The position numbers and the translations under genes are program-made. From the NCBI GenBank assembly GCA_003235605.1, contig QJVU01000387.1, positions 1-9,818 on the forward strand: a stretch of 9,818 nt of DNA. The letters are read 5' to 3'. This document shows positions 1 to 9,818 of this stretch, in pieces (positions within the stretch are counted from its first letter, which is position 1; each line of letters begins with the position of its first letter). The notes beneath the pieces are model-generated. The model worked only from the letters and a program-made list of their open reading frames with translations. It had not been told where the DNA came from and ran no database searches. The stretch is from Planctomycetota bacterium (GTDB lineage: Bacteria; Planctomycetota; UBA1135; UBA2386).

Positions 1-1341
1 GTGATCAGGGGTCACGAGACCCTGGTGGGTGGGACGGCCGAGGCTTTGCGCCACGAGCCCTCGCCGTTGCCGCCGCCGAATCCCGGACGCCATGAGGAGT
101 GCGTGTTCGGTGGCATCCGGGAGAAGGGTCGGGCGACGCTGGCCGGCTACCGACGAGGAGGCGGCTACGAAGCCTTGCGGAAGGCCCTCACCCAGATGAC
201 GCCCGAGAAGGTGGTGGCGGAGATCCGGGACAGCAAGCTGGCGGGTCGGGGTGGGGCGGGCTTTCCCACCGGCGTGAAGTGGAAGGCGGTGGCGGAGGCG
301 CCCGGCGAGCCCAAGTCGGTGGTGTGCAATGCCGACGAGGGGGAGCCGGGGTGCTTCAAGGACCGCGCCATCATGGATCACGATCCCCACCAGATGATCG
401 AGGGGATGGTCCTGGCGGGGTATGCCACCGGCGCGCAGCGGGGGTTCATCTACCTGCGCTACGAGTACCCGGAGACCTTCCAGATCCTGGAGCAGGCGAT
501 TGCCGAAGCGAAGGATGCCGGCTTCCTGGGGAGTGACATCCTCGGAAGGGGTGTGCGGTTCGACCTCTACATCCGACGCGGGGCGGGCGCATACATCTGC
601 GGCGAGGAGGGTTCGTTGTTGAACTCGATGGAGGGCAAGCACCCTTTCCCGCGGAACCGGCCGCCGTTCCCTGTGACTCATGGCTTCGAGGACAAGCCTA
701 CCGTCGTCAACAACGTGGAGACCCTGGCCTCGGTGCCACCGATCATCAGGAACGGGGCGAAGTGGTACCGGGACCTGGGCATGGGGGAGCATGCCGGGAC
801 GAAGCTGATCAGCCTGTCCGGTGACATCAAGCGGCCAGCCAACTACGAGGTGCCCATCGGTCTGCCGCTGAAGACACTGCTCCACGACTGGGCGGGAGGT
901 CCCGCGAAGCCGGGCCGCAAGATCCGGGCGGTGACCATGGCCGGCCTGTCAGGAGGGTTGCTCGCCGGAAGCGACCTGGACGAGGTGACCCTCGACGAGC
1001 CCAGCATCCGCAGCAAAGGGTCTTTCCTGGGTGCGGGAGGCATCATCGTCTACGACGACAGCCGGGACATGGTGGAGGCCTCGCGGGTGATGATGTCCTT
1101 CTTTGCCCACGAGTCCTGCGGCAAGTGCTTCCCCTGCCGGATCGGGACCCAACGTCTGACCGAGAGGCTCTCCGGGGAAGCAGGTCCCAAGCAGGTGGAG
1201 GCCTGGACTGCCGAGGTAGAGGACATCGGCAACGTCATGAAGGCCACCAGCGCCTGCGGTTTGGGCATTGCCGCGCCCCTGGTGACCGACAGTCTCCTGC
1301 GCTACTTTCCCGATGAAGTGCAAAGGCATGTAGAATCGTGA
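1..1341 (+). CDS. fdhB: NuoF-like NADH/FMN-binding beta subunit of NAD(P)-linked formate dehydrogenase (start uncertain, may be 5'-partial)
   Basis: This is the flavoprotein subunit that passes electrons between NAD(P)H and the Fe-S chain of its partner, the formate dehydrogenase encoded next. Seen in the sequence (numbering from the GTG at base 1, 446 residues): a CVFGGIREKGRATLAGY segment near residues 34-50 typical of HndC/FdsB-type NuoF proteins; the glycine-rich GRGGAGFPTGVKW at 82-94; the FMN-site CNADEGEPG at 109-117; GAGAYICGEE at 194-203; and a C-terminal [4Fe-4S] site with C373, C376 and C379 (ESCGKCFPC) plus C419 (ACGLG). The usual GEETALL is GEEGSLL here. The frame is open to the left edge, so the true start may lie upstream. 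No NuoE-type [2Fe-2S] domain is visible in the 33 residues before the NuoF core, so that partner, if present, is upstream. The gene ends 19 bases before fdhA, which suggests one operon. Family assignment is secure. The role in formate dehydrogenase is inferred from the neighbour, and the symbol varies between organisms (fdhB, fdsB, nuoF-like). Confidence 0.9.
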   Translation: MIRGHETLVGGTAEALRHEPSPLPPPNPGRHEECVFGGIREKGRATLAGYRRGGGYEALRKALTQMTPEKVVAEIRDSKLAGRGGAGFPTGVKWKAVAEAPGEPKSVVCNADEGEPGCFKDRAIMDHDPHQMIEGMVLAGYATGAQRGFIYLRYEYPETFQILEQAIAEAKDAGFLGSDILGRGVRFDLYIRRGAGAYICGEEGSLLNSMEGKHPFPRNRPPFPVTHGFEDKPTVVNNVETLASVPPIIRNGAKWYRDLGMGEHAGTKLISLSGDIKRPANYEVPIGLPLKTLLHDWAGGPAKPGRKIRAVTMAGLSGGLLAGSDLDEVTLDEPSIRSKGSFLGAGGIIVYDDSRDMVEASRVMMSFFAHESCGKCFPCRIGTQRLTERLSGEAGPKQVEAWTAEVEDIGNVMKATSACGLGIAAPLVTDSLLRYFPDEVQRHVES

Positions 1342-1360: not shown

Positions 1361-4102
1361 ATGACCTCCACGGAAATCGCCCGCGAACAGGAGACCGGCA
1401 CCCAGACGATCACTCTGGATGGCGTGGACGTACCGTTCTCCGAGGGGCAGACCCTCTACGAGATCAGCCACCACCACCAGAAGGACGTGCCGACCCTCTG
1501 CTATGACGATCGGCTGGATCCGTTCGGGGGGTGCCGGATGTGCGTGGTGGAGGTGGAGGGAGTACGGAATCCCGTGGCCTCTTGCACGATGAAGGCCATG
1601 CCCGGGATGGTGGTGCGGACCCACACCGAGAAGCTCGAGAAGTACCGGAAGACGCTGCTCGAGATGCTGGTCTCGGAGAACGACAAGCTCGAGGTGGATC
1701 CCCTCAGGGGATACGCCTCCCAGGAGCTCACAGCCCTGGTGGACCGGTACGAGGCGCGGACCGGGCGGTTCTTGGGCAAGCGTTCCGGGAAGAGCTTCGA
1801 AGGCGACGACAACCCCTTCATCCTTCGGGACTACAACAAGTGCATCTCCTGCTACCGCTGCGTGCGGGTTTGCGCCGAGCACGAGGGGGACTACGCCATC
1901 AGCGTGAAGGGTCGGGGCTTTCACACCCAGATCACCACGGAGTTCGACCACATCCTGAAGGACTCGGCCTGCACGTTCTGTGGGCAGTGCGTGCAGACCT
2001 GCCCGACGGGGGCGCTGGCCGACAAGAAGGCCATGCGGGCCGAGGGCAAGCCAGGAGAGATCAAGAAGACCCGCACGATCTGTCCCTACTGCGGGGTGGG
2101 TTGCTCCGTGGACATCCTCACCAAGCAGGAGGAGATCGTCGCCGTGCAGCCGGCCATGGATGGACCGGCGAACCGCGGGGCACTGTGCATCAAGGGGCAG
2201 TTCGCCTTCGACTTCGTGCAGCACAGGGACCGGCTGAAGAAGCCCCTGGTGCGCAAGAACGGCAAGCTGGTGGAGGCCTCCTGGGAGGAGGCCCTGGACC
2301 GGGCGGCGGCAGGGTTCGTCAAGGCCGAAAAAGAGCACGGGCCGCAGTCGATCTATGGGGTGGCCTCGGGGCGTGCGCCCCACGAAGCCGCCTACACGAT
2401 GCAGAAGTTCATCCGGGCGGGGTTCGGTACCCACCGGATCGACAACTGTAGCCGAGCTTGACACGCTCCCACGGTGGCCGGTCTGGCCGCCACAATCGGG
2501 CGAGGCGCCATGTCGAACCCCTTGGAGGACATGGAAAAGCCCGACACCATCTTCTGTATCGGGACCAACATGACCGAGTGCCATCCGGTGGCTGCCACGC
2601 GGCTGAAGAAGGCACTGCGGAAGGGTGCCAAGATGATCGTGGCGGATCCCCGGCGGATCCCCTTGGCGGAGATCTGTGATCTCTACCTGCCGATCCGCGT
2701 AGGGAGCGACGTGGCCCTGCTGCTGGGCATGGCCCACGTGATCCAACGAGAGGGGCTCGTCGACCAGTCCTTCGTCGAGAGCCGCACCACCAAGGCCAAG
2801 GAGTTCCTGGAACACGTCAAGCAGTTCACTCCCGAGTGGGCCTCGAAGATCACGGGCGTGCCGGCCAAGGACATCGAGACCGCGGCGCGGTGGTACGGAG
2901 GCGTGGATCGAGCGGCGATCTACTACACCCTGGGGGTCACCGAGCACATCTGCGGGGTCGACAACGTCAAGAGCCTCTGCAACGTGGCGCTGATGACCGG
3001 CAACATCGGCCGCGAAGGCACCGGCATCAACCCGATGCGCGGGCAGAACAACATCCAGGGCGCCGGCGATGCCGGGGCGATCCCCGCCAACTTCCCCGGC
3101 TTCCAGTCGGTGTTGCTGCCCGAGCACCAGGCGAAGTTCGAGGAGCTCTACGGGAAGAAGTGCCCCTTGGAGAAGGGCATGACCAAGGTGGAGGCGCTGA
3201 GGCTCTGCGGCACGGAGATCCGCGCCATGCTCATCAACGGCGAGAACACCGTGGTCTCGGATCCCGAGCGGGAGCACTGCGAGCATGCCCTGAAGAGCCT
3301 GGACCACTTCGTGGTGATTGACATCTTCCTGACCGAGACCGGTGAGTTGGCGGACGTGGTGCTGCCGGCGACGGCGTGGGGCGAGACCGACGGCGTCTAC
3401 ACCAACACCGAGCGGCGCGTCCAGAAGCTCCGTGCTGCGGTACCGCCCCAGGGGGACAGCAGGCCCGACTGGTGGATCGTGAGCCAGATTGCGAAGCGTT
3501 GCGGCATCAAGGGTTTCGACTTCGAGTCCGCCAAAGACGTGTTCAACGAGCTTTGCAGTGTCTCGCCCATCTATGCCGGGATCGACTGGGACATGATCGA
3601 CAAGGGCGAATACCACTGGCCAGTTCCCGAGAAGGGCCACCCGGGCACGCCGGTCCTCCACCAGGGAGAGTTCAAGAACGGTCGTGGCATCTTCACCGTG
3701 GTGAACTATCGCGACCCCGCGGAGAGCATTGACGACGACTACCCGGTTTGGCTCACCACCGGCCGGCGCCTGCAGGCCTACCACACCAGGACCCAGACTG
3801 GCAGAGCCGCCGGCATCGACTACCTGCTTCCCGAGGAGTACCTCGAGGTGCACCCCGAGGACATGAAGGCCTGGGGCTACAAGGACGGCCAGATCATCCG
3901 CATGACCAGCCGCCGCGGCAGCATCCAGATCAAGGTGAAGGCGGACGACACTTCGCCCAAGGGGACGGTGTTCTGCAGCTTCAGCTTCAACCAGACGCCG
4001 GTGAACATCCTCACCGGTGGCGGCTACGACCCGGTCACCTACACCGCCGAGTTGAAGGTCTGCCCTGTGAGGTTGGAGCCGCTGCGCCCTGCCGCAGTGT
4101 AG
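1361..4102 (+). CDS. fdhA: Formate dehydrogenase catalytic (alpha) subunit, selenocysteine-containing, read through UGA at 2459-2461
   Basis: This enzyme interconverts formate and CO2 at a Mo- or W-bis(pterin guanine dinucleotide) centre. It is one 913-residue protein if UGA is read as Sec367. Domains in order: NuoG-like [2Fe-2S] domain with C47, C58, C61 and C75; a linker where the usual His(Cys)3 cluster ligands are absent (no Cys between 75 and 161); a two-[4Fe-4S] ferredoxin module (C161/C164/C167/C171 and C204/C207/C210/C214); the molybdopterin-oxidoreductase [4Fe-4S] site C241/C244/C248/C276; the active site NCSRA-Sec-H with Sec367-His368; NPMRGQNNIQGAGDAG around 560-572; and a pterin-binding C-terminal domain. 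Arg560 lies 193 residues after Sec, matching the U140-H141-R333 triad of E. coli FdhF as I recall it. There is no hydrophobic anchor or Tat signal, so it is probably cytoplasmic and acts with the NuoF-like subunit. ATG 1361 is chosen because an in-frame stop lies at 1331-1333 and the [2Fe-2S] domain follows; no clear Shine-Dalgarno is visible in the 19-base gap. The metal (Mo or W) and the preferred direction of reaction cannot be told from sequence. Confidence 0.93.
2459..2461 (+). other. Selenocysteine (UGA) codon of fdhA
   Basis: The in-frame TGA falls between NCSRA and HAPTVAGLAATIGRGAMSNP. In formate dehydrogenases this position, just before the catalytic His, is always Cys or Sec and binds the active-site metal. 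Formate dehydrogenase homology continues in the same frame without interruption on both sides, and no other stop occurs until TAG 4100-4102. A nonsense mutation at exactly this residue, with no other damage, would be a striking coincidence. A correctly placed SECIS-like hairpin follows. Known biology: UGA decoding needs SelA, SelB, SelC (tRNA-Sec) and SelD, none of which is in this window. Confidence 0.93.
2462..2491 (+). promoter_or_regulatory. Bacterial SECIS element (SelB-binding mRNA stem-loop) inside fdhA
   Basis: Bases 2473-2479 (GGTGGCC) pair with 2485-2491 (GGCCGCC) as a continuous 7-bp stem, six Watson-Crick pairs plus one U-G, around the 5-base loop GGTCT at 2480-2484. The loop begins 18 bases after the UGA, the same spacing as the GGUC loop of the E. 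coli fdhF SECIS, recalled from memory. Bacterial SelB recognises the apical GGUC-type loop and a bulged U in the stem. Here the U in the corresponding place (2475) can form a U-G wobble with 2489 instead of being fully bulged. The hairpin sits inside the coding sequence (VAGLAA), as is normal in bacteria. Pairing was done by hand; no folding energy was computed. Confidence 0.82.
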
Positions 4103-4130: not shown

Positions 4131-7100
4131 CTACTCCCACTCGCCCAGACGCCGGCGCCAGTCCTGAATGCGCCGGTTCAGGGGCTCGCGATGGGTCTTG
4201 TAGTAGATGGCGCCTGCGACCAGTGCCGCGCCCAGGAGCAGCACAAGGGTGCCCAGCCAGGTCAGCCGCGCGGCGCGTTCCATCCCTGAGAAAGCCCGGT
4301 AGAGGATCGAGGCGAGGGTCACCACGACCCCGGCAAAGCCGAGAAGCACGTAAACACGGATCTGCAGGAATCCACCCAGGCCCATGGCCAGCAGGCAGAG
4401 TGCCAACAGCGTGAGGTGGAACGCGATCGGATAGCGGGGATCGGCGAGGGCGTAGTAGCCCGCGCTGCCCAGCATGGCCATCAGCGTGACCAGCCGTATC
4501 GTGTTCCTGAGGTGCGGCTCTACCCGCTCCCGGAACATCTGCAGCAGCACCAGGATGCCCAGGCCGACCGGGACCACGTAGGCCTGCAGGGTCCGAAGCT
4601 CCAGCTTGGACCAAAGGGTGATCATCACGAAGGCGACGAAGCCGGCCACGGCCACCAGGTGGTACGGCGACTCGCGGTCGTCCTTGCCCAGGAAAGAGAA
4701 CATCAAGCTGTGCAGTCCCACGACCATGAGCGTCGTGTCGGTGCTCAGGTCGTTGGCCACCGTCCAGATCAGGGAGAATGCCGGCAGTGCCAGCATCGCA
4801 ACGGTGATCGGCACACGCATCTCGCTCGGCTGTGGACCGAACAGCTGCCGAGCACCTACCAGCAGGAATGACGCGATCAAGCTGGCCCAAACGTCGTACT
4901 CCAGACGCCAGAAGTCGGTGGTCAGCACCAGGTGATGGCGGATCGCCAGGAGCAGGAGCAGCACGCTCAACTTGCTGGCAATGTAGCTGGCCATCGCGCC
5001 CCGCCCCGCGAGACGCCGCGCGTTTGCAAACCAGGAGACGGCGAACGACGCGTACAACAGGCAGAGGAGCACCAGCACCTCGATCTCGAAGGCTTGGTGG
5101 TACCGGAGAGCCTGCACACCCACGGTCAGGGCCATGGAGGTCGCCAGCAGGACCACGTGCAGCGTCGCACCGGCTTCAGAGAGCCACCACACCACCTTGT
5201 GGTAGAGTCGGGGTCGTCCTGCCGGGGGAACCACGGACCGATGGCTCGACACCAGGGCGACCAATGCGGTGAGCAGGAGAGCCGTGGCGGCCGTGAGGTA
5301 CGGCCAGGGCAGGCGAGCGATGGGGACCAGCGCAGCCTGCCTCACCGCTGCCGGGGTGAACTGGCTGAAGTAGGCCAGCCAGGTGGGTACCGCCAGCAAC
5401 AGGCCGGCAGCCAGGTAGTCGCGGTTGCGGATATCCCCGGAGAGCGGCGTGATCGCGCCGAGGGCTCCCGCCACGGCCGTTGCCCAGAGGCCAACCTGGG
5501 AACAGGGTCCGTGGTAGAGAACATGAAGTGCCGTGACGGTGGCCAGGGTCGCGGCGGCAGGGGCGACGCGGAACCCGCCGCGCTCCATCCCCAGCAGCAG
5601 TGCCCACATCCCCAGCAGCGCCCATACGACGTGGTCCCGATCCAGGTAGCTGGGCACAACGAAGTCGGTGTGGAGTGCGAGCAGCAGTTCGAGGCCGGCA
5701 ACGACGAAGTAGGAAGGCAGGCGCAGAAGGACACCGTGGTGGATCAGCACCGAGCCGGCACCCAGGAGCAGCGGCGCAATGACGAGCCCCTGTTCCTGGG
5801 TGTCGTGGTCGAGCACCGCGATTGCCACCGTCAGATGGGTGCCTGCCAGCAGACACCAGCCCCACGCGCGGCGCAGGGAAGACCACTCCTCATGAGTGAT
5901 CCCGGCCAGCCGCTGGATGCCTGTGCTCAGCGGGGAGCGCTGGTTGGTGGTCAGGGTCCAGAAGTGTGCCATCGCCACGGAGCACCAGGCGGCTGGAACC
6001 ACGTGGGCAAACGGACTGAGCTTCGGCAACCAGGTGAGCGCAAAGAAGCTGCCCACCATCACTGCCAGGCCGCCGTAGAGGGCGAGCCAGTAGGTGCCGC
6101 CGAGGCCATGCAAGCGCAGCAGCAGCAGGCCAAGCACCATGATCCAGGGAGAGTTCACGTGGTAGTGGCTGGTGTCCACCGGGCTGTCGGGGAACAGCAC
6201 CAGGTGGAAGCCCCCTCTTGCGGCGTAGAGGGCCAGGATGGCGAAGCCGATGGTGGCAGCCGAGAGCCGGTAGCGGCGGGCGACATCCAGTCCCCGCCCG
6301 TAGGCCAGCTCCGCCCGGGCGGCGAAGTAGTAGACCGGCGCGCTGAGCGCCAGGAGCGCCACGTTGGGTTGGCGCAGTGGCGGTATCAACAATGCAGCGC
6401 ACCAGAGCGCCAGGGTCACGCCAAAGTGGTAGGCGCCTTCGAGGAAGTCCACACTGCGGGGCGACAGGTCGTCGGCACGGCGCGCGACGTAGCGAAAGGC
6501 GAGTCCCGCCAGCCAGGCCATGATGCCGGACACCAGGAACCTGGTGTTGGACACGTTCAACAGGTTCGGGTGGACGAGGTAGTTGGCCGCCAGCAGCAGG
6601 AGGACCAGGCCGGCGGCGCCGATGCTGGCCTGGTCAAGTCCGGTCTGCGAGGACCGCGAGCTGCGCAGCAGCGGGCGCAAGACGAACGCCACCAGCAGGC
6701 TGGCGACCAGCCCCAGGCAGATCAAGTGGATGTGGGAGAGACCCTGCTCCAGGAGGTAGGCGCCGCACAAGACCCGCACCGCATGGACATTGCCCAGGGT
6801 CAACAGCACGCCCGCGATGGCAAAGAGCACGCTGCGCCGCCACAACAGACCAGCGAGGCCGACTGCGACCGCTCCCAGGTAGGGGGTAGCGAGCTGCTGA
6901 GGGGCTTCGCGCAGGGCCGGGTGGATGGTGTGGTAGAGGGCTGCGAGGCAGGCGAGGACGGTGGCGGGGGCCAGCAGCCAGACCCTCACCGACGCGACCC
7001 GGCGCAACAGTGGCTCCGGGGCTTCCACCAACTGGGGCAGCGCCCGATGGAGGAAGCGGCCCAGGGCGTAGGCCAGCGGCAGCGCGGCTGCCAGAGTGGC

Positions 7101-9818
7101 CAGGTGCCAGGGGGAGAACAGGGTGCGCAGGCGCTCGGTGGGGAGAACCTGTGGTCCCAGGGCCGCACCGTGGACGGCCACGTAGCCGACGAGAAGGGAC
7201 AGCAGCACGACAGCCCCCGAGCCGGCGCAGCGAGCGGCCAGCAGCACCACGACGATCAGGGTGATCTCCTGGGCGGGGGTCAGCGCCAGGGTACCCACGA
7301 AGTCCAGGACCACCGCCCCGGCCATGGCCACCGCAAGCACCACGACACCGAATTGCAGCACCTGCAGCAGCGAGCGCGTTCTGGCGCGGAGCGGCGCGAA
7401 GGGCTCGGACAACAGCAGCAACGCCTGCACGACAAGGGCATGTGCCAACACCGGCCAGGCCGCGCTGTCGATGTGCAGACGCGGCAGCAGTGGGCCGACT
7501 CCAGGCGTTTGCCAGGCCAGGAGCGTCAGCAGCGGCAGTGCGAACAGGACCACGCCGTGGGCGCGGGTGCCCCGGCGTACCTCGTGCCATGCACAGTGCA
7601 GCGACACCAGCGTGACCAGGGGCAGAAGCTCACGGACCCCTGCACCATCGAGGATCGACAGTGCACAGATGACGCCGACAATCGTGCTACCGACCTCCAG
7701 CACTGCCAGCGTCGGCCGGAGCAGCAGGTCCCGCGACCAGGACGCCGGGAGACCCCAGCGGTAGACGGGACAGAGAGCGCTCAGGATGACGCCGGTGTGG
7801 AACAGCGGCCAGTGCCAACGGGGCTGATCGGACAGCGAGACATGGAACACGCACATCGCGACCAGCAGCTGAATCCAGCCGAGGTGCACCAGGCCCCGCG
7901 CCCACGGCCGTTCGCGGTTATAGGTGCCAAGCAGCGTCCAGTTGACGGCGATGACCCCGAGTGCCGTCGCGGTCTTGGGACCCACCCCCGCCACCACGTT
8001 GCGAACGAGGGTGACGGTGTCGGTCTTGAGGATCAGGAACGACACCGAGGCCAACAACGGCCAGGTGAACAGCGAGTGGTCCCGCCGCTGCAGCGGGAAC
8101 GGCGTGCGGTCCAGGAAGCGGTCGCCGGCCGAGAGTTGCTCGAGGGCTCGCCAGCGGCGCAGCAGGAAGCAAGCCACTGTCATGACCAGGGCGGTCAGTG
8201 CGCTGCCCAACCCGGTGCCCCAGCCTAGTTGCTCGAGGGTCCTCGCGTATTGGACCTTCAGCTCCGGGAACAGGACGATGACAATGACTGCGGCCATCAA
8301 GGCTGGCACGAGCGATCGCGAGAACCAGGTGGCAAACAGCAGGCATCCGGTCATCAGCAGCGGCCCGACGTAGACCATGAGCACCCGATGCCAGAGCAGG
8401 TCTTGGGGGCTGGGAGCCTGCTGTTCCAGCGCCACTCGCAGGAGCATGCCAACCACGGCCAGGGCACCGTAGGTCCACAGCACGGTGGAGCGGGCGCGCA
8501 ACACGAGGTCGGTGGGCAAGATCCATGTGCAAACCAGCCACAGGATCGACAACACGGCCAGGCCAAAGACCATGGTGTTGCCGTGCAGGCTTCGGCCCAG
8601 CATGTCGACGCAGCCCAGGTAGGGTAGTGCAACCGCCAGCACGACCATGGCGGTGTGCATCCAGGTCAAGCGCCGTTCGCGGTGGGCGTTGATCACAAGC
8701 CACGAAGCCACCACCAGCAGGCAGCCGGCAGTCCACACCGGTGGCGAGCGGAACTGCCACTGCGCCAGCACGGCGATCACCACGGTGACGAACAGCGTGG
8801 CGTTTCGCACGCCGGCGACGGCAGCACGCAGTGCGGTCTGCGCGACAGGTCTGCGCAGGGCCTCGAGGCCGAGACCCACGCCGAGGCCGACGGCGGGCAG
8901 CCATGCGCGGTCGAAACCGTCCAGCAGACCCACGGAGCCGGCCCCCAACGCTAGCAGCGTCACGCCGATCCATCCGTGGGCGGGGTGGCGTTGCGCGCTG
9001 GCCTCGTAGAGCCACACCAGACCCGCCAGCAGGAACGCGGCGATGCGCATCTGCTCCTGGGCCTGGCCCATGAGGCAGCCCACGAGGATCAGCGCAAAGC
9101 CCAGGAACGACTCACCCCCGTGGGCAGCGCGCTGCTCGGCCAGCTGCTGCACCCGGCGCTCGACATGCAAGAGCAGACCGCCCGCGAGCACAAGCATCGG
9201 TGCGTAGGTGTGAACCTGGGGCAGACGACCCAGCCCGGCATGCACCCAGGCAAACACCTGCAGGAACGTCACCACGAGGGTGGCCCCGAAGAACCACAGC
9301 ACCCGGCGGTCCTGCGCGAGGTCTCGGGTCAGCACCCGGTTGGTGAACGCCACGACGGTGAAGGCCAGGCCCAGGAAGCCGAGGTAGAAGCCGCTGCCCA
9401 GGACCAGGGGCAAGTCCTGATTGTCGGTACCTGCCAGGCCCTCGGCGATGGGACGGAGGGTGACGAGGCCGTTCAACAACAGTAGCGTGGTGCCCAGGAG
9501 CGCGCCCAGGGAGGCGTGGACGGCGGTGCACCAGCGCCTGAGACCCAGGCCGAAGAACCCCAGGTACAACGCTGCCACCCCCAAGACCAAGGGTAGGCGG
9601 TAGCCGGCGACGGCGGCGTCGTCCCCCAGCAGCGATACGGTCATGAAGTTGGCCGGCAACAGGCAGATGGCCGCGCCGCGCAGGATCGCGGCGGTGTCTC
9701 GGCACTGGGGCTCCTTCTGATCGAGCCAGCTGCCTAGCCAGGCGAGGCCCGCGGTGAAGCCTCCGAGCAGGCCGGGGAGGATCGTCCAGCGGACCAGCCA
9801 GGTACGGTTCCAGCTCTG
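4131..9818 (-). CDS. Giant polytopic integral membrane protein of unknown function (about 60 predicted membrane segments; 5' end outside the window)
   Basis: I do not recognise this protein. The frame runs from the right edge (9818) to TAG at 4131-4133, giving at least 1895 residues. It is open with no stop before 9818: reading leftwards the codons beyond 9659 still encode a membrane-like stretch (ILPGLLGGFTAGLAWLG and AAILRGAAICLLPANF), so TTG at 9659 is not the real start. By eye there are about 60 hydrophobic helices of 15-22 residues, separated by short loops, with no sizeable soluble domain and no catalytic, nucleotide-binding or metal motif that I can identify. The basic tail KTHREPLNRRIQDWRRRLGEWE, with several Arg/Lys, suggests a cytoplasmic C terminus. 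The last helices (GGFLQIRVYVLLGFAG then a two-helix end) loosely resemble the ends of bacterial DUF2157/DUF2339-type membrane proteins, from memory only, but this one is much longer than those. Several stretches look like diverged copies of each other (see findings). The gene converges on fdhA with a 28-base gap, so it is not in that operon. Coding reality is well supported by length and by consistent transmembrane composition; function is unknown. Confidence 0.85.
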   Translation of the reverse strand, partial: QSWNRTWLVRWTILPGLLGGFTAGLAWLGSWLDQKEPQCRDTAAILRGAAICLLPANFMTVSLLGDDAAVAGYRLPLVLGVAALYLGFFGLGLRRWCTAVHASLGALLGTTLLLLNGLVTLRPIAEGLAGTDNQDLPLVLGSGFYLGFLGLAFTVVAFTNRVLTRDLAQDRRVLWFFGATLVVTFLQVFAWVHAGLGRLPQVHTYAPMLVLAGGLLLHVERRVQQLAEQRAAHGGESFLGFALILVGCLMGQAQEQMRIAAFLLAGLVWLYEASAQRHPAHGWIGVTLLALGAGSVGLLDGFDRAWLPAVGLGVGLGLEALRRPVAQTALRAAVAGVRNATLFVTVVIAVLAQWQFRSPPVWTAGCLLVVASWLVINAHRERRLTWMHTAMVVLAVALPYLGCVDMLGRSLHGNTMVFGLAVLSILWLVCTWILPTDLVLRARSTVLWTYGALAVVGMLLRVALEQQAPSPQDLLWHRVLMVYVGPLLMTGCLLFATWFSRSLVPALMAAVIVIVLFPELKVQYARTLEQLGWGTGLGSALTALVMTVACFLLRRWRALEQLSAGDRFLDRTPFPLQRRDHSLFTWPLLASVSFLILKTDTVTLVRNVVAGVGPKTATALGVIAVNWTLLGTYNRERPWARGLVHLGWIQLLVAMCVFHVSLSDQPRWHWPLFHTGVILSALCPVYRWGLPASWSRDLLLRPTLAVLEVGSTIVGVICALSILDGAGVRELLPLVTLVSLHCAWHEVRRGTRAHGVVLFALPLLTLLAWQTPGVGPLLPRLHIDSAAWPVLAHALVVQALLLLSEPFAPLRARTRSLLQVLQFGVVVLAVAMAGAVVLDFVGTLALTPAQEITLIVVVLLAARCAGSGAVVLLSLLVGYVAVHGAALGPQVLPTERLRTLFSPWHLATLAAALPLAYALGRFLHRALPQLVEAPEPLLRRVASVRVWLLAPATVLACLAALYHTIHPALREAPQQLATPYLGAVAVGLAGLLWRRSVLFAIAGVLLTLGNVHAVRVLCGAYLLEQGLSHIHLICLGLVASLLVAFVLRPLLRSSRSSQTGLDQASIGAAGLVLLLLAANYLVHPNLLNVSNTRFLVSGIMAWLAGLAFRYVARRADDLSPRSVDFLEGAYHFGVTLALWCAALLIPPLRQPNVALLALSAPVYYFAARAELAYGRGLDVARRYRLSAATIGFAILALYAARGGFHLVLFPDSPVDTSHYHVNSPWIMVLGLLLLRLHGLGGTYWLALYGGLAVMVGSFFALTWLPKLSPFAHVVPAAWCSVAMAHFWTLTTNQRSPLSTGIQRLAGITHEEWSSLRRAWGWCLLAGTHLTVAIAVLDHDTQEQGLVIAPLLLGAGSVLIHHGVLLRLPSYFVVAGLELLLALHTDFVVPSYLDRDHVVWALLGMWALLLGMERGGFRVAPAAATLATVTALHVLYHGPCSQVGLWATAVAGALGAITPLSGDIRNRDYLAAGLLLAVPTWLAYFSQFTPAAVRQAALVPIARLPWPYLTAATALLLTALVALVSSHRSVVPPAGRPRLYHKVVWWLSEAGATLHVVLLATSMALTVGVQALRYHQAFEIEVLVLLCLLYASFAVSWFANARRLAGRGAMASYIASKLSVLLLLLAIRHHLVLTTDFWRLEYDVWASLIASFLLVGARQLFGPQPSEMRVPITVAMLALPAFSLIWTVANDLSTDTTLMVVGLHSLMFSFLGKDDRESPYHLVAVAGFVAFVMITLWSKLELRTLQAYVVPVGLGILVLLQMFRERVEPHLRNTIRLVTLMAMLGSAGYYALADPRYPIAFHLTLLALCLLAMGLGGFLQIRVYVLLGFAGVVVTLASILYRAFSGMERAARLTWLGTLVLLLGAALVAGAIYYKTHREPLNRRIQDWRRRLGEWE

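Follow-up and report, generated by a model that had tools for sequence, protein, structure and literature searches.

An in-frame TGA, almost certainly a selenocysteine codon, at the catalytic site of a formate dehydrogenase gene from a probable planctomycete

Introduction

Escherichia coli FdhF (formate dehydrogenase H) is the enzyme for which the catalytic roles of selenocysteine (Sec), His and Arg are established, and work on FdhF and SelB has likewise established how SelB and a GGUCU loop act in Sec decoding. FdhF works with a hydrogenase and not with NAD. Among formate dehydrogenases of known structure, the 7vw6/7e5z, 9wxb and 6tg9 complexes are ones that we take to use NAD.

Selenocysteine-containing FdhA is common in bacteria. 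According to the accessible text of PMC5029168, no bacterial selenoproteins are more widespread than FdhA and SelD, with FdhA in 822 organisms, and the accessible part of PMC1794560 lists 103 Sec FdhA proteins. As described in the available portion of PMC4807772, planctomycete P1 has a Sec fdhA that shares an operon with nuoEF, is 65% conserved in Plesiocystis pacifica and has undergone horizontal transfer. The locus analysed here resembles that P1/P. pacifica SIR-1 operon, going by the description in the same portion of the source, in pairing a Sec FdhA with a Nuo-type partner. What is accessible of PMC8318568 and PMC12013277 adds nothing on this gene. Our literature search surfaced no paper on the Gemmatimonadota members considered below, and we do not claim that they are unpublished.

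Results

A single reading frame interrupted at the catalytic site

The window, which is the whole 9,818-nucleotide stretch of DNA analysed, contains a frame that runs from the ATG at 1361 to the TAG at 4100–4102 with the TGA at 2459–2461 in frame (Table 1). This TGA is the single interruption, and recoding of position 367 gives a read-through product of 913 residues. Under translation table 11, the same region is listed as two frames, 1361–2461 (366 aa) and 2474–4102 (542 aa, GTG start), reproducing the two apparent fragments of 366 and 542 residues predicted by the first-pass annotation. The GC3 of fdhA is 0.90, and the long antisense open frame that overlies the gene is probably a by-product of this high GC3.

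Table 1. Coordinates of features in the window
Feature	Position	Strand	Basis or remark
NuoF-type NADH-dehydrogenase subunit, partner gene, cut by window start	1–1341	+	Pfam, NuoF models
Antisense open frame over fdhA, 872 residues	1235–3853	-	Frame listing
fdhA	1361–4102	+	Single coding region, 913 codons plus TAG; TGA codon 367 almost certainly read as selenocysteine
fdhA domains: 2Fe-2S, 4Fe-4S, molybdopterin	1361–4102	+	Pfam; TIGR01591
Codon 367, in-frame TGA at the catalytic Cys/Sec site, almost certainly selenocysteine	2459–2461	+	Aligned to E. coli FdhF Sec140
SECIS element	2456–2514	+	Rfam SECIS_3 match, 57.2 bits, E 1.9e-11
Apical SECIS hairpin, stem GGUGGCC/GGCCGCC around GGUCU loop (2480–2484)	2473–2491	+	Fold, pair counts
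Val372 codon GTG, apparent restart of second frame	2474–2476	+	Third base pairs with 2488 in SECIS stem
Membrane-protein-like frame	4131–9818	-	1842 residues from first in-window start; 1895 from window end, still open

Scored with C at position 367, the product passes TIGR01591, the equivalog model for the formate dehydrogenase alpha subunit, with 753.5 bits against a cut-off of 666.25. A two-sequence alignment with E. coli FdhF (taken from NC_000913.3; 262 of 678 aligned residues identical) pairs residue 367, His368 and Arg560 with Sec140, His141 and Arg333, so that all three active-site residues (Sec/Cys, His and Arg) are in place. The proposed location of the TGA at the catalytic Cys/Sec position is thereby borne out, as is the proposed spacing of the Arg, which lies 193 residues beyond the Sec in both proteins (560 − 367 = 333 − 140). 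FdhF differs in length (715 residues versus 913) and is without the N-terminal 2Fe-2S/4Fe-4S region; it aligns from about residue 235 of the window FdhA. By contrast, 7vw6/7e5z, 9wxb and 6tg9 are homologous over nearly the full length including the N-terminal Fe-S region, and 7vw6, 7e5z and 9wxb carry Cys at the active site where the window has TGA.

Conservation of the TGA in related genes

A scan of genome contigs found 11 stretches fitting the pattern, one of which, L001, encoded a relative. We searched 200 genomes from the phylum of G001, the Gemmatimonadales metagenome-assembled genome (MAG) that carries L001, and among the matches listed at least 38 of these genomes, G001 included, hold a long close match. 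All 38 long close homologues, at 63.7–73% identity, have TGA at the homologous codon; their next stop never falls before position 908, with the truncated L061 ending at 687 and stop-free up to there. Shorter close pieces that span the Sec site (in G061, G140 and G194, and a second one in G065) have TGA in four of four cases, which brings the count to 42 of 42 close homologous genes with the codon read; the G154 pieces do not reach across the site and stand outside this count. TGA also occupies the site in E. coli fdhF and in all three sampled members of an FdhA clade of about 42% identity in the same phylum (L062, L063 and L064). In this second, more distant clade, GGT CTG also follows behind the TGA. 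Six distant homologues have TGT or TGC instead; these were selected for the absence of a reported internal stop, and nine distant genes were sampled in all. Conservation of TGA at the catalytic site is far beyond chance. The compared sequences are related to one another, and the counts are not independent events. The claim that a single 913-residue selenoprotein FdhA is mis-split by gene callers is supported by the sequence itself and by this alignment of the read-through product with Sec and Cys homologues. Plasmids yielded 1558 matching records, all below 60% identity, and thus no close plasmid relative.

Because the host locus is known from one short window, one could suppose that fdhA is a pseudogene, or that the TGA arose through a sequencing error or through a nonsense mutation in a Cys codon. 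Against this, the 38 long close homologues with TGA come from different genomes and keep the downstream frame intact, and synonymous sites behind the TGA are constrained (see below). This explanation, which we hold to be very improbable, is already largely refuted, and we continue with the Sec codon as the preferred reading.

The second apparent gene and its start

Database entries reflect the split. In a search of a 5.8-billion-protein set (7998 candidates scored, 2387 matches), the best 120 of the 2387 matches all measure 518–547 aa with 57–59% query coverage, and a full-length protein is absent from these 120. The 12 pieces examined individually all start just past the Sec site: 11 begin at or next to the position that corresponds to Met384, and one begins at the counterpart of residue 372. 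The 366-aa N-terminal pieces are too short to count as candidates under the length rule. The restart at GTG 2474 given by the first-pass annotation therefore agrees with the table 11 frame but not with most of these database pieces; gene callers may in fact start the second fragment at ATG 2510.

Possible starts soon after the TGA, and an ATG at codon 384 in 39 of 39 close genes, would suit two separate polypeptides that assemble after a translational restart at GTG 2474 or ATG 2510. Conservation of ATG 384 does not tell against a restart, since the Met may be retained for the protein. However, the break coincides with the catalytic residue, the Cys homologues are single uninterrupted frames, and codon 372 is GTG in the window only, the remaining 37 of the 38 aligned genes having GTC or GTT there. 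We give two-polypeptide assembly very little credence and favour one continuous selenoprotein.

A SECIS hairpin behind the TGA

The region just 3' of the TGA matches Rfam SECIS_3 (RF01989) over the full length of the model, in the right place, but at 57.2 bits it does not reach the gathering score of 63. The match begins beside the TGA, so that a look for a bacterial SECIS element, as the first-pass annotation had suggested, comes out in favour of one. The loop codons GGT CTG are unchanged in 39 of 39 close genes and stand at a constant distance from the TGA in all 43 TGA genes (the window, 38 long close, three distant and E. coli); GGUC begins 21 bases past the U of UGA, which is also its distance in E. 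coli fdhF. At the corresponding codon, GGT occurs in two of the six Cys genes and another codon in the remaining four.

A codon test was designed to separate selection on the RNA from selection on the protein. The codon alignment comprised 38 genes (the window and 37 others; L061 was left out because it is cut off) and offered 226 columns in which the amino acid never varies and has four or six codons. Across these columns the mean share of the major codon is 0.59, and a single codon is used throughout in just three: A373 (GCC), G374 (GGT) and L375 (CTG). The three are contiguous and lie at or beside the GGUCU loop, at the tip of the hairpin. G374 is the sole single-codon column among 55 for Gly, and GGT is rare among Gly codons near the site in these genes (286 of 2616 readable). 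Moreover, the facing third bases of V372 and A376 form Watson–Crick pairs in all 39 genes: C-G in 36, U-A in two (L001 and L044) and G-C in one, the window.

The structure was examined on a 34-row alignment (the window, 29 of the 38 long close loci, three distant genes and E. coli), from which near-duplicates had been dropped by eye. In the folded structure, 82.6% of cells are paired and four pairs show two-sided changes, values reached by 0 and 7 of 500 shuffles, respectively. When the structure was slid along the alignment, none of six shifted versions reached this percentage, and one (+3) also has four two-sided pairs. The upper hairpin is well supported, with 88.3% of cells paired, and the lower stem is weaker at 74.5%; RNAalifold retains just the six-pair upper hairpin. 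The Rfam structure, with 69.1% of cells paired against 82.6% for the folded one, fits worse, and in two-sided pairs it is equalled or exceeded by two of its six slid versions. Relative to composition, the stability of the hairpin is not unusual (minimum-energy z-scores of −1.07 and −1.63); such scores by themselves would not have revealed the SECIS element.

A frame that stays open across TGA would also be seen if TGA were reassigned genome-wide, for example to Trp or Gly, and served here as an ordinary sense codon. However, the adjoining NuoF-type gene ends in TGA at 1339–1341, so TGA is not simply reassigned, and both the Cys at this site in the six sampled homologues without TGA and the SECIS element behind the codon speak against the idea, which we regard as the most improbable of those considered. 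Judged from sequence comparison, the internal stop of fdhA is almost certainly read as selenocysteine, and we infer that the UGA is actually decoded in this host.

Operon context and predicted reaction

FdhA carries a NuoG-like Fe-S region, and the gene upstream encodes a NuoF-type partner with FMN-binding and 4Fe-4S domains. The NuoF-type frame is open at the window edge; in many relatives with enough flank it extends about 110–170 residues further upstream, and in the window it probably does not start at the GTG of position 1. Counting the window, 36 of 39 loci have a NuoF-type frame directly upstream of fdhA; within the stretch examined none was found in L039, L040 and L049. In two relatives tested, L001 and L044, a NuoE-type domain (PF01257) is fused to the NuoF-type part, a fusion that sets them apart from the nuoEF of P1 and SIR-1 as these are presented in the available portion of PMC4807772. 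The NuoEF frame of G001 looks broken in two. The gene order in L044 is fdhD, nuoEF, fdhA. FdhD takes part in the maturation of formate dehydrogenases.

The product is most likely an NAD-linked selenocysteine formate dehydrogenase, with the NAD link suggested by homology; we likewise infer which metal is bound, in which direction the reaction runs and what accepts the electrons. A selenoprotein of FdhA fold might carry out something other than NAD-dependent formate oxidation, for example CO2 reduction or electron exchange with another partner: homology is what assigns the reaction, and in L056 a formate-tetrahydrofolate ligase gene comes after fdhA, an adjacency that would suit both formate use and the fixation of CO2 into C1 units. 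We judge such a different reaction unlikely, albeit less so than the other alternatives, given that the equivalog model for the alpha subunit is passed and that the NuoF-type partner carries FMN-binding and 4Fe-4S domains. NAD-linked formate oxidation is the reaction that we retain.

Selenocysteine machinery in carrier genomes

We refer to the 38 Gemmatimonadota genomes with a long close fdhA match as carriers. Among them, selA and selB each score above cut-off in 37 (in the 38th for selB, G123, the gene is spread over two contigs), selD is present in all 38, and tRNA-Sec reaches at least 55 bits in 36. The complete Sec machinery that the first-pass annotation expects in the host is present in nearly all of these carriers, and we predict it for the organism of the window. 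The 55-bit line is our own; the curated threshold of 47 bits lets through 62 of 74 genomes, in some cases apparently on account of other tRNAs. ARAGORN read the anticodon as TCA in eight of eight strong tRNA-Sec loci checked, six of them in carriers. A set of 36 non-carriers, picked by eye from genomes without a close match and not covering all of them (G034 is one that it omits), contains selA and selB above cut-off in 21 and 20 genomes, respectively, and tRNA-Sec of at least 55 bits in 22. Because sel genes are also common in these non-carriers, the co-occurrence of machinery and fdhA is weak evidence when taken alone. A tRNA scan of the window returned none.

No strong tRNA-Sec was found in carrier G099. 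In carrier G001, selB and selD were found, selA and a strong tRNA-Sec were not, and ARAGORN reads its five RF01852 match sites as His, Val, Trp, Glu and Leu tRNAs. A new Sec pathway in G001 was considered and rejected; given selA in 37 of 38 carriers, G001 is better read as an incomplete MAG.

As a separate observation, the match to selD itself contains a single TGA in 33 of the 38 carriers (the others being G046, G079, G087, G100 and G163), and the SelD of those 33 is probably also a selenoprotein.

Host and the remaining frame

The host is probably, not certainly, a planctomycete. Matching FdhA pieces include one of 78% identity labelled Planctomycetes and one of 76% labelled Gemmatimonadales. 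Downstream of fdhA on the opposite strand is a membrane-protein-like frame, listed as 4131–9659 and beyond, whose three best matches are 71–76% identical, one of them labelled Planctomycetota. It has 150 homologues; the best 120 of these are mostly about 2200–2450 aa long and include some labelled Planctomycetota, Verrucomicrobia, Elusimicrobia or Lentisphaerae. The frame has no match in Pfam or NCBIfam, and Pfam yields nothing for its best named homologue even at E 10.

Discussion

We hold with high confidence that fdhA encodes the catalytic subunit of an NAD-linked molybdenum or tungsten formate dehydrogenase with selenocysteine at residue 367. In the mechanism that we propose, the UGA would be decoded by tRNA-Sec brought by SelB, which would be bound to the mRNA hairpin just 3' of the codon through its GGUCU loop. 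Sec367 would serve as a metal ligand in an active site that also contains His368 and Arg560, and electrons from formate would pass through the Fe-S clusters of FdhA to the NuoF-type partner and there reduce NAD+.

The relatives raise a broader proposal, for which we see about even chances: a Sec-only clade of NAD-linked FdhA may be common to Gemmatimonadota and other phyla, with Cys versions apparently absent or very rare, so that its carriers would be Sec-dependent and catalogues, holding mostly headless pieces, would mask its abundance. Two observations point this way. TGA is found in every close homologous gene with the codon read, and a full-length Cys homologue of similar identity would be expected to outscore the top database match of 1170 bits, yet there is none in the best 120.

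The fdhA gene described here, though a sound example, is an ordinary representative of the bacterial selenoprotein family with the widest distribution; it provides a clean, well-supported instance of UGA recoding and changes no principle. Its close relatives are stored headless in public sets, and formate oxidation and selenium use are for this reason probably under-counted in little-cultured bacteria.
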